This document shows positions 52,362 through 59,240 of a stretch of DNA of 64,000 nt, one piece after another. A program made the translations under genes and the position numbers. Each line of letters begins with the position of its first letter. Position 1 is the stretch's first letter. Under the pieces are notes generated by a model that did not search any database, had not been told where the DNA came from, and worked only from the letters and a program-made list of their open reading frames with translations. The stretch spans positions 1 to 64,000 of the forward strand of contig PHAN01000001.1 of NCBI GenBank assembly GCA_002841695.1, read 5' to 3'. This stretch comes from Elusimicrobia bacterium HGW-Elusimicrobia-1 (GTDB taxonomy: Bacteria; Elusimicrobiota; Endomicrobiia; PHAN01).

Positions 52362-52467
52362 AAATTGGTCAAACCGGTAGCCAAGAGAAGATGCTTAAGA
52401 ATGAAAATCCCCCTCTTTCCCCCTTTGAAAAAGGGGGATTAAGGGGGATTTAGTAAAATCGAGCGTT
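52362..52467. repeat. CCCCCTTT hairpin before larC
   Basis: CCCCCTCTTTCCCCCTTTGAAAAAGGGGGATTAAGGGGGA forms a G/C hairpin in the larB-larC gap. A related hairpin is at 59175-59240. Such repeats may terminate or stabilise transcripts. Confidence 0.6.
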
Positions 52468-55878: not shown

Positions 55879-55933
55879 GGTTAAGAAATAAAGCATCTCG
55901 GCTTCAAACCCGGGAATACTTAAGTTATAACGA

Positions 55934-55970
55934 AGCCCTTCGCAAGCAATTGCGGAGGGCTATTCGTTTT
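55934..55970 (+). terminator. Intrinsic terminator of the outer-membrane protein gene
   Basis: 12-bp stem AGCCCTTCGCAA/TTGCGGAGGGCT with a GCAA tetraloop (55934-55945 with 55950-55961), followed by ATTCGTTTTT. Confidence 0.88.
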
Positions 55971-56186
55971 TATGAATGTGTTACGTAAATCTAATGTCCG
56001 CCGCCATAATTTTTGTATAAAGATGAAATATAGGCGGGAAGCGAGACAATTGGCGTGTGTGTCCTTAATCTCCCCTCTACTAAGGGGTAACGGGGGTGCG
56101 TGCCTCTCTTTTCTCCCCTCTAAGGGGTAACGGGGGTGGGTGCCTCGCTTTTCTCCCCTCTATAAAGAGGGGAAGGGGGTGTGTTA
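55971..56186. other. Gap with tandem CCCCTCT/AAGGGGT repeats
   Basis: After the terminator there is ~90 bp of plain sequence, then three partial tandem units reading CTCCCCTCTA…GGGGTAACGGGGGTG (56067-56180). The last forms the left arm of the inverted repeat framing the DUF559 gene. No gene. Confidence 0.6.
56150..56180 (+). repeat. Left arm of inverted repeat framing the DUF559 gene
   Basis: CTTTTCTCCCCTCTATAAAGAGGGG followed by GGGGGTGTG is the reverse complement of the segment at about 56543-56582, after the stop codon of the DUF559 gene. Each arm is itself a hairpin (CCCCTCT/AGAGGGG). Confidence 0.8.
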
Positions 56187-56567
56187 ATGACCAAAATCTA
56201 TTACAAACCAGAATTAAAAGAACTTGCCCGTCAACTCCGGAACCGTGCCACACAAAGCGAAATAAAACTCTGGAAATATCTGAAAGGCAAACAGTTGGAC
56301 GGATATGATTTTCACAGGCAAAAGCCGATTGGGGATTATATAGCCGATTTTTTCTGCCCCAAACTTAAATTGGCTCTTGAATTGGACGGTTATACGCACG
56401 GCTTTGAAAATGTTTTTGATAAAGACGCCGTCAAGACGCGCAGATTAAATGAGATGGGGATAACGGTTTTGAGGTTTAATGACGAAGATGTTGTGAAAAA
56501 TATAGATGGTGTGTTGGGGTGTATTCGGGAATATATAGAAAAACACACCCCCGGCCCCTCTTTATAG
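56187..56567 (+). CDS. DUF559 endonuclease-like protein
   Basis: 126 residues of the DUF559 family, related in fold to the very-short-patch-repair endonuclease: ELARQLRNRATQSEIKLWKYLKG, FHRQKPIGDYIADFFCPKLKLALELDGYTH (active-site aspartate/glutamate region), TRRLNEMGITVLRFNDEDVVKN. The ATG 56187 start is preferred; GTG 56181 is possible. The gene is framed by an inverted repeat, and the last residues (KHTPGPSL) are encoded inside the right arm. DUF559 genes in other genomes often sit in such C/G hairpin surroundings, which hints at a mobile cassette. Actual nuclease activity is not established. Confidence 0.9.
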   Translation: MTKIYYKPELKELARQLRNRATQSEIKLWKYLKGKQLDGYDFHRQKPIGDYIADFFCPKLKLALELDGYTHGFENVFDKDAVKTRRLNEMGITVLRFNDEDVVKNIDGVLGCIREYIEKHTPGPSL

Positions 56568-56610
56568 AGGGGAGAAAAGCGCCGTTCCCTCTTAGTAGAG
56601 GGGAGAAAGA
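56543..56610 (-). repeat. Right arm of inverted repeat framing the DUF559 gene
   Basis: ACACACCCCCGGCCCCTCTTTATAGAGGGGAGAAAAGC is complementary to 56150-56185 with small differences; a further partial unit (TAGTAGAGGGGAGAAAG) follows. Confidence 0.8.
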
Positions 56611-56688
56611 TAAGGCGCGCACCCCGCGTTATCCTTAAACTTGAGGACTGACGGAGCTTAAAAAACTGATGAGAGAAGTCCTTGAAAT

Positions 56689-56907
56689 TTGAAACCACGA
56701 ATCATAAAATACTCCGACCTCGTCAAAGAAAAGCGGAATTTCTATCGTTTCCGCGCTCTAAACAAAAAACGCCTCGCGCTCTCCCGTCGGCGCAACCCTT
56801 TCGAGAGGGAGATGCTTCTTAAAATGGATGTGGCCCGCCGCAAGAGATACCTCCGTGAAGGTCGTCTCGTAATCATTTCTCCCCGCCTTTGGGAACTCGC
56901 TATCTAA
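56689..56907 (+). CDS. Small basic hypothetical protein
   Basis: 72 codons from a TTG start, strongly basic (…KEKRNFYRFRALNKKRLALSRRRNPFEREMLLKMDVARRKRYLREG…). Just upstream a broken frame reads LTELKKLMREVLEI before a stop. It may therefore be the second member of a decayed two-gene unit, toxin-antitoxin-like. No family was recognised. Confidence 0.4.
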   Translation: MKPRIIKYSDLVKEKRNFYRFRALNKKRLALSRRRNPFEREMLLKMDVARRKRYLREGRLVIISPRLWELAI

Positions 56908-56915
56908 TTTTTCCC

Positions 56916-56944
56916 TTGACATCGTATATCTTTTTTGCTATATA
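56916..56944 (+). promoter_or_regulatory. Promoter and possible operator of the toxin-antitoxin pair
   Basis: TTGACA (56916-56921), 17-bp spacer, TATATA (56939-56944). The word GTATATCTTT occurs at 56924 and again at about 56947, flanking the -10 box, and could be the antitoxin operator. Confidence 0.7.
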
Positions 56945-56984
56945 GTGTATATCTTTAATATATCCTTGAATAGGAGGGAATTAT

Positions 56985-57212
56985 ATGACTTCCAAAACAC
57001 TGGTGGTGCTTGAGCCGACGATGAGAGAATCGGTGGAAAGAATTGCGCGTGAAAATGAAATCTCCATATCGGGGGTTTGCCGCGACCTCATAAAAGAAGC
57101 CCTCGATATTTACGAGGACAAATACTGGAGCGCGGTCGCCGCACAAAGAGAAGAAGGTTTTAATTGGCGAACCAAAGGGCTCTCTCACAACAAGGTTTGG
57201 GGCAAGAAATAA
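56985..57212 (+). CDS. Antitoxin of a RelE/ParE-type module
   Basis: 75 residues. EPTMRESVERIARENEISISGVCRDLIKEALDIYED looks like a ribbon-helix-helix DNA-binding region, and the C-terminal KYWSAVAAQREEGFNWRTKG would wrap the toxin. It precedes the toxin gene by one base and has its own promoter. The call rests on this arrangement. Confidence 0.8.
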   Translation: MTSKTLVVLEPTMRESVERIARENEISISGVCRDLIKEALDIYEDKYWSAVAAQREEGFNWRTKGLSHNKVWGKK

Positions 57213-57213
57213 A

Positions 57214-57495
57214 ATGCTTTATACCTTGTTGTACCATCCAAAAGTAAAGTCCGTTGATATTCCTTCTCTCAATCCCGCCGACAATGATACTATCCGGCGG
57301 GCCATAGAGCAAAGATTGCTCGCCGACCCCGCGAAATACGGACTTCCGTTGAAGTGGGGTTTGAAGGGGTACAGAAAATTAAGGGTGGGGGACTATCGCA
57401 TTATTTATTACGTATCCGGAAACGAAATAAGAGTGGTGATAATAGGCCATAGGAAAGATGTTTACAACCGCGCCGCGAGGCGTCTGACGAAATGA
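57214..57495 (+). CDS. RelE/ParE-family toxin
   Basis: 93 residues: MLYTLLYHPKVKSVDIPSL…AIEQRLLADPAKYGLPLKWGLKGYRKLRVGDYRIIYYVSGNEIRVVIIGHRKDVY in outline is the full RelE/ParE pattern with the conserved basic residues (KLRVGDYRI) and C-terminal HRKDVY. It is likely an mRNA interferase or gyrase poison; which one cannot be read. Preceded by its antitoxin. Confidence 0.9.
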   Translation: MLYTLLYHPKVKSVDIPSLNPADNDTIRRAIEQRLLADPAKYGLPLKWGLKGYRKLRVGDYRIIYYVSGNEIRVVIIGHRKDVYNRAARRLTK

Positions 57496-57544
57496 AACCC
57501 CGCGCCTTTGGAAACTCGTCATCCGAAAAAGTTAGTTTCACGCC

Positions 57545-59174: not shown

Positions 59175-59240
59175 CCCCCTACCCCTCTTTAAAAAGAGGG
59201 GTAACCCTCCCCCTTTAAAAAGGGGGAAAGAGGGGGATTT
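59175..59240. repeat. C/G-rich double hairpin after the desulfurase gene
   Basis: CCCCTCTTTAAAAAGAGGGG followed by CCCCCTTTAAAAAGGGGG: two adjacent hairpins of the families seen at 56150 and 52410. Possible terminator or REP. Confidence 0.7.

Follow-up and report, generated by a model that had tools for sequence, protein, structure and literature searches.

How did a small endonuclease-like gene come to lie between inverted C/G hairpins in the genome of Elusimicrobia bacterium HGW-Elusimicrobia-1, and do the gene and the hairpins move as one unit? The gene belongs to the DUF559 family and lies in the window, by which we mean the whole stretch of 64,000 nucleotides that was analysed. An initial annotation had proposed that the layout parallels REP-associated transposases and that DUF559 might drive the spread of these repeats.

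The DUF559 gene and its arms

The features of the locus, and two solo copies of the repeat elsewhere in the window, are as follows.

56070..56098, plus strand: outer left unit 1, CTCCCCTCTACTAAGGGG TAAC GGGGGTG, mirrored by 56582-56606
56113..56138, plus strand: left unit 2, a tandem copy of hairpin and tail at 40-nt spacing, 95%
56146..56185, plus strand: left inner arm, with hairpin CCCCTCTATAAAGAGGGG (56155-56172), AA and the G-rich tail GGGGGTGTGTT directed into the gene
56187..56567, plus strand: DUF559 (PF04480) endonuclease-like gene, ATG at 56187, stop codon within the right hairpin
56542..56581, minus strand: right inner arm, 95% complementary to the left inner arm and overlapping the C-terminal codons
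56582..56606, minus strand: outer right unit, counterpart of 56069-56093 with 92% complementarity
59175..59235, no strand assigned: solo doublet of two hairpins with G-tails outward and no nuclease; intergenic, after a cysteine-desulfurase-like gene
52409..52446, no strand assigned: minimal solo unit (L184), a single hairpin with tails on both sides

The two inner arms are each 40 nt long, and the inverted-repeat alignment score of the flanks was 49.0, whereas none of 500 dinucleotide shuffles exceeded the maximum of 13.5. The arm unit is of the triplex type AAAGAGGGG / GGGGTGTGT. The outer copies are nested too, with units in mirror order at 56070, 56113 and 56153 on the left and at 56555 and 56585 on the right; therefore, the left side consists of three tandem units and the right side of two. 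The initial annotation had described nearly complementary arms of about 35 bp bordering the gene, a C-terminus encoded by the right arm, and further hairpin copies at 56067-56150 and 59175. All of this held. The stop codon TAG (56565-56567) sits inside the right hairpin (56555-56572), so the right arm does encode the C-terminus, and the further copies are real (56070-56150 and 59175-59235), with the copy at 52409-52446 in addition. There is an alternative in-frame GTG at 56181, upstream of the ATG.

The window gene matched the Pfam family PF04480 with 109.3 bits (E 1.1e-31; cut-off 20.6). Residues R18, E25, D54, E65, D67, G68 and H71 are invariant in our broad alignment (A1), and the conserved E / D / ExDG / H criterion of DUF559 is met. 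Profile matches included 3HRL (E 2e-33) and the homing endonuclease I-Bth0305I (3R3P, E 1e-5). The nearest folds to an AlphaFold2 model of the protein (pLDDT 84.4) were 3HRL and then 3R3P (Foldseek E 7e-5, TMt 0.81), with a weak match to Vsr (1VSR). The window protein is likely to be a small nuclease of the Vsr / I-Bth0305I fold, where the fold is predicted by the model and endonuclease activity is inferred. The related E. coli protein YcjD was earlier placed in the PD-(D/E)XK superfamily with Vsr relatives (PMC1189080). In a Caulobacter mutant without a methyltransferase, the SOS response depends on another DUF559 protein, VsrA (CCNA_02930), which by this genetic evidence is DNA-damaging in vivo (PMC12907096). 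VsrA was treated as a repair enzyme and no link to repeats was drawn. Our search of the literature, which covered open-access PMC only, found no biochemical data on repeat-framed DUF559 proteins and no paper linking DUF559 or YcjD to repeats.

The arms as class II intrastrand-triplex units

In each unit, a G-rich tail comes after a C/G hairpin and repeats the 3' purine arm of this hairpin in mirror order, with G in the tail opposite G in the arm and A or T opposite A. We measured the concordance between tail and arm with the tail position found without reference to the arm sequence. In 136 arms the concordance was 0.806, compared with 0.624 after permutation (0 of 5000 permutations reached the observed value), and in 85 unique pairs it was 0.744 compared with 0.581 (0/5000). 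The correspondence follows the purine-motif code of class II intrastrand triplexes (G*G:C and A(T)*A:T), as reported for BoxC/PIT/TM repeats (PMC4666352). The window unit meets the criterion for this class, namely a pyrimidine arm, a purine arm and a reverse-Hoogsteen tail with G*G:C and A(T)*A:T triads. The DUF559 arms are therefore, in sequence, the class II motif; that they physically form triplexes is an inference. Triplex formation in vitro has been reported for TMECO only; in vivo, Holder et al. did not detect a stable triplex (PMC4666352).

Holder et al. (2015) described one G/C-rich motif of this kind in more than 260 genomes and did not settle its origin; transposase or integrase remnants, they wrote, were "never found" close to the copies in E. 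coli (PMC4666352). The DUF559 arms share with BoxC/PIT/TM(ECO) (Hoyne and Maher, 2000; PMC4666352) the pyrimidine arm, the purine arm, the reverse-Hoogsteen tail and the arrangement in inverted doublets. The difference is that no mobility gene could be linked to the repeats by Holder et al., whereas here they are tied to DUF559 across phyla.

Distribution of the arms within the genome and across phyla

Counting the repeat genome-wide and asking whether other DUF559 genes are framed had been proposed as checks. The pattern CCCCTCT-N(0-8)-AGAGGGG occurs at 17 places in the genome, compared with 0 for a reversed control, and a looser hairpin-and-tail pattern gave 166 matches compared with 20 in the reversed control (overlapping matches counted). 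The 2.06-Mb metagenome-assembled genome has five DUF559 genes and four of these are framed, each by its own repeat variety:

Window gene: CCCCTCT..AGAGGGG + GGGGGTGTGTT
DUF559 no. 2 (C2:88222): CCCCTTTT..AAAAGGGG hairpin, extra GTCCCG hairpin + GGGGTATT
DUF559 no. 3 (C4:135108): CCCCCTTA..AAAGGGGG + GGGGGTTGT
Frameshifted gene (C2:130861): CCCCCTTT..AAAGGGGG + GGGGGATTTT

The fifth gene (L006, C14:19693) is a longer, weaker relative and is unframed; another repeat type, GTCATTGCGAGTCCCCGATTTCTCGGGGACGAAGCAATCT...GCAATGACA, follows it. Gene no. 2 (L002) lies within an open frame of 3018 aa that continues through the right arm into a large downstream protein, so read-through into that protein is conceivable.

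Solo elements without a nuclease also occur. Five of these (L169, L170, L171, L172 and L174; ~80-150 bp) have the same ~38-nt arms and the same inward polarity as the C4 gene (no. 3), with the layout ATTCCCCCTTAnnAAAGGGGG-n-GGGGGTTGT ... ACAACCCCC-n-CCCCCTTT..TAAGGGGGAAT, and L175 is a longer version of about 300 bp. The five solos probably represent non-autonomous derivatives of the C4 DUF559 element, although this is inferred from sequence alone. The other solos in the genome have their tails outward. One contig (C15; L188 292-468) contains a tails-out doublet of the window variety (GGGGTGTGTATTA) within a longer inverted repeat (TCATTGCGGTTTAATACACACC...). In another genome of the set (G010), three contigs (C27, C70 and C74) have window-unit matches in their first ~110 bases, as though the repeat broke the assembly.

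We also considered whether a RAYT could mobilise the DUF559-type repeats in this genome. The only PF01797 match is a RAYT-like Y1 gene (L058 1140-1990, C2:100030), and it is framed by arrays of a GTAGTGTAGGGGCTTGTCCCCGTAG-like, GTAG-type REP unrelated to the DUF559 arms. Because the one Y1 gene has GTAG repeats, this reading was rejected here. The RAYT with its different repeat provides an internal contrast to the pairing of DUF559 with its arms.

To examine other lineages, DUF559 loci were collected from a scan of 84,980 species genomes. Their record titles name Chloroflexota, Nitrospirae, Nitrospinae, Desulfobacterota groups, Bacteroidetes, Patescibacteria, Zixibacteria, Brocadia, Omnitrophota, Poribacteria, Atribacteria, Proteobacteria and others. 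Inverted-repeat scores of 16 or more were obtained at 51 of 79 DUF559 loci but in only 1 of 295 shifted windows. A hairpin-and-tail detector was applied to 98 loci (the 79 from the scan and 19 from the window's class), which together come from about 15 phyla. Inward units were present on both sides of 56 of these loci, compared with 0 of 366 shifted windows, and on at least one side of 80 loci, compared with 30 of 366 shifted windows. Outward units on both sides were seen at 16 loci and again in 0/366 shifted windows. Any single cleavage model must account for both topologies. Eighteen of the 98 loci had no inward unit within ~260 bp on either side, and the P. aeruginosa DUF559 copies (L200 and L201) lack arms.

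Within the window's class, both-side framing was found for 11/19 DUF559 genes, compared with 0/19 ParE genes (Fisher p 1e-4) and 0/22 GIY-YIG genes (Fisher p 2e-5). The initial annotation had named two outcomes that would refute the idea, repeats with no enrichment near DUF559 genes and DUF559 loci in relatives without arms. Both were examined and the idea survived; enrichment near DUF559 is strong with none at the control genes, and arms are present in relatives and in other phyla.

There are limits to these counts. The ~80 scan loci were picked by likeness to the window's subfamily, using a narrower alignment (A2) and not the broad one, which makes the sample biased; therefore, the framing frequency cannot be transferred to all DUF559 genes. 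A null made from mismatched flanks was dropped in favour of shifted windows and permutations because arms resemble one another across loci, which makes that null too strict. Full-length DUF559 occurs in 5 of 8 class genomes that are rich in the CCCC..GGGG unit compared with 8 of 52 others (p 0.009), but the richness threshold was set post hoc, after the counts were known. No full-length small DUF559 match was obtained in G008 and G021, which are among the genomes of the class with the most repeats.

The repeat varieties match the enzymes. Left and right arms of the same locus had a mean alignment score of 22.3, compared with 13.0 for arms of different loci (0/20,000 permutations). Across 53 loci, protein similarity correlated with repeat-unit similarity (Mantel r 0.54, 0/2000). 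The correlation was unchanged when controlled for GC (0.54) and was 0.53 between phylum groups only. The Mantel permutation makes the simplifying assumption that loci are exchangeable. Together, matched arms, mirror covariation of tail and hairpin, and co-diversification of enzyme and arms are established by sequence. That the nuclease and its repeat variety move and diversify jointly is a likely inference from these patterns.

Comparison sites and explanations for the layout

Comparison of empty sites had also been proposed, and such sites were found in two groups. In Sinorhizobium sp. K101 (L192), a block of ~767 nt consisting of doublet, DUF559 and doublet separates two genes whose counterparts in Shinella PSBB067 (L242) have ~10 nt between them; the flanks are 84.6% and 78.7% identical. 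The cyanobacterial comparison was of Synechocystis L198 and L199 with L207-L209. A pglX-type methyltransferase gene of Synechocystis B12 is split by unit, DUF559 and unit. In Pseudanabaena the homologue is intact; at the corresponding codon it has a solo doublet without the nuclease, read in frame (peptide SPHPLAPSPKGRGGTRDLSGSPRPLGEGLGVRE). A DUF1156 gene of Synechocystis B12 is likewise interrupted by a DUF559 element, and the Nostoc and Geminocystis homologues have no repeat at the corresponding place. Solos with the same arms, and blocks of nuclease and arms at sites that are empty in relatives, are thus established. It is likely that nuclease and arms were gained as a block at the Sinorhizobium/Shinella and cyanobacterial sites, but the gain is inferred from sequence alone. 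No target-site duplication could be defined at comparison sites that are only 70-85% identical, and we found no recent strain-level move of an element.

The sister genome G001 was considered as a clean empty site for the window locus. It was rejected because the syntenic gap, which lacks DUF559, is occupied by other small genes. Relative to window positions 55880-57500, this locus (L057, G001:C133) is a variable site with HicB-like and retropepsin-like genes, identified by eye, in place of DUF559. In Sphingomonas parapaucimobilis, a framed DUF559 gene lies between sufB and sufC. Both interrupted genes of Synechocystis B12 (L198 and L199, on plasmids of this one strain) are of DNA methyltransferase type, pglX and DUF1156, and it is possible that DUF559 elements target methyltransferase genes non-randomly.

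We consider it likely (probability about 0.68) that DUF559 and its arms constitute a minimal mobile element that is REPIN/RAYT-like but has an unrelated enzyme and an unrelated repeat; cutting and transposition are inferred. In this view, DUF559 would recognise an arm folded from single-stranded DNA at replication, or one present as a hairpin or triplex in supercoiled DNA, and would cut or nick it. The released element would then be copied through repair or re-insertion. Solo doublets would originate through loss of the gene and be mobilised in trans, and BoxC/PIT/TM repeats would be the remains of DUF559 elements. The suggestion that DUF559 drives the spread of the repeats is therefore supported but is still an inference, since no cleavage or transposition has been observed.

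The parallel with REP-associated transposases held for the layout only. The locus shares with REPtrons and REPIN-RAYT systems (PMC3116915, PMC3733652) a small single-gene element, an inverted palindromic frame, dispersed solo doublets, and several varieties of gene plus repeat per genome. The REPtron criterion of a gene framed by a dispersed repeat with solo inverted doublets is met, which is an analogy of layout and not homology. By contrast, the criteria of an HUH/Y1 transposase and of GTAG-tagged palindromes are not met; DUF559 is a Vsr-fold PD-(D/E)XK-type nuclease and not an HUH tyrosine transposase, and its arms lack the GTAG tag and have a purine tail that mirrors the hairpin arm.

The main rival is homing, in which a free-standing DUF559 nuclease cuts pre-existing triplex doublets and inserts only its own gene while the repeats spread by other means. 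The window protein meets the catalytic-domain fold criterion for homing endonucleases of the I-Bth0305I type, its nearest solved fold after 3HRL. As in that group, insertion of DUF559 genes into other genes is seen (pglX and DUF1156). At the pglX codon occupied by the Pseudanabaena doublet, DUF559 of Synechocystis lies between doublet halves, and gene and solos have repeat varieties in common. However, unlike the I-Bth0305I and Vsr-like homing endonucleases, DUF559 has no intron or intein and has a frame of dispersed repeats with abundant solo copies. Also against homing alone, the Sinorhizobium/Shinella and DUF1156 sites show nuclease and repeats where relatives have no repeat, and co-diversification of enzyme and arms across phyla is expected under joint travel. 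We regard homing alone as unlikely, although homing into existing repeats may be one mode within the DUF559/repeat system.

Two other explanations fare worse. DUF559 might be a passenger, a Vsr-like nuclease of repair or genome defence that lies beside unstable triplex repeats moved by an unrelated transposase. Vsr-like proteins do function in mismatch repair (PMC12907096), and in E. coli the TM loci are sites of frequent change (PMC4666352). This is nevertheless very unlikely: the ParE and GIY-YIG accessory genes are absent from such repeats, the RAYT of the genome has another repeat, Holder et al. found no transposase near TMs (PMC4666352), and the matching of arm variety to enzyme is not expected of a passenger. 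Less probable still is that the hairpins are terminators or mRNA-stability elements selected in place for the nuclease gene. Their location directly at the start and stop codons favors this, but there are many solo copies per genome without a nuclease gene, and PIT elements had no promoter or terminator activity (Hoyne and Maher, as reported in PMC4666352). Moreover, the mirror covariation of tail and arm would be useless to an RNA hairpin, and purine-motif triplexes are not formed by RNA.

The DUF559 gene of E. coli K-12, ycjD, lies between sapF and fabI. A TM copy, CCCTCGCCCCTCTGGGGAGAGGGTTAGGGTGAGGGG, is present between ycjD and fabI, on the 3' side of ycjD, and has the sequence of TMECO no. 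9 (1,351,204-1,351,239), one of the 23 listed by Holder et al. (PMC4666352). There is no unit on the 5' side. No empty site was found in E. coli, since 5343 of 5426 genomes gave a match to ycjD; in two divergent strains that we examined, an efflux operon adjoins fabI. In our family search the E. coli control genome gave no PF04480 match, even though E. coli ycjD carries a DUF559 annotation.

Triplex-type palindromes are widespread dispersed repeats of bacteria whose source is unknown, and what is new here is the link to DUF559. If the mobile-element reading is true, one nuclease family accounts for the spread of these repeats, a very common domain of unknown function gains a function, and REPIN-like partnerships of nuclease and palindrome arose more than once with unrelated enzymes. 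The old question of their origin also becomes testable in E. coli K-12, which has the single gene ycjD and the 23 listed repeats. A bolder reading, for which we see as much reason to doubt as to believe, is that these are phylum-spanning minimal elements whose sole enzyme is the Vsr-fold DUF559 acting on triplex-forming ends, and that BoxC/PIT/TM repeats stem from them, also in E. coli, where the enzyme would be YcjD, with RAYT/GTAG and possibly GIY-YIG/CGTC as sister systems.

Small GIY-YIG genes had flanking inverted repeats in 5 of 22 cases, from a different palindrome family (GTCATTCCCGCAAAAGCGGGAATCCA, CGTCATCCC...GGGATCCA). Such flank repeats are listed at L210 (860-1560), L226, L230, L236, L239 and L240. 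They resemble CGTC-tagged REPs, which have been reported without a dedicated transposase (PMC3733652), and GIY-YIG could possibly be their partner.
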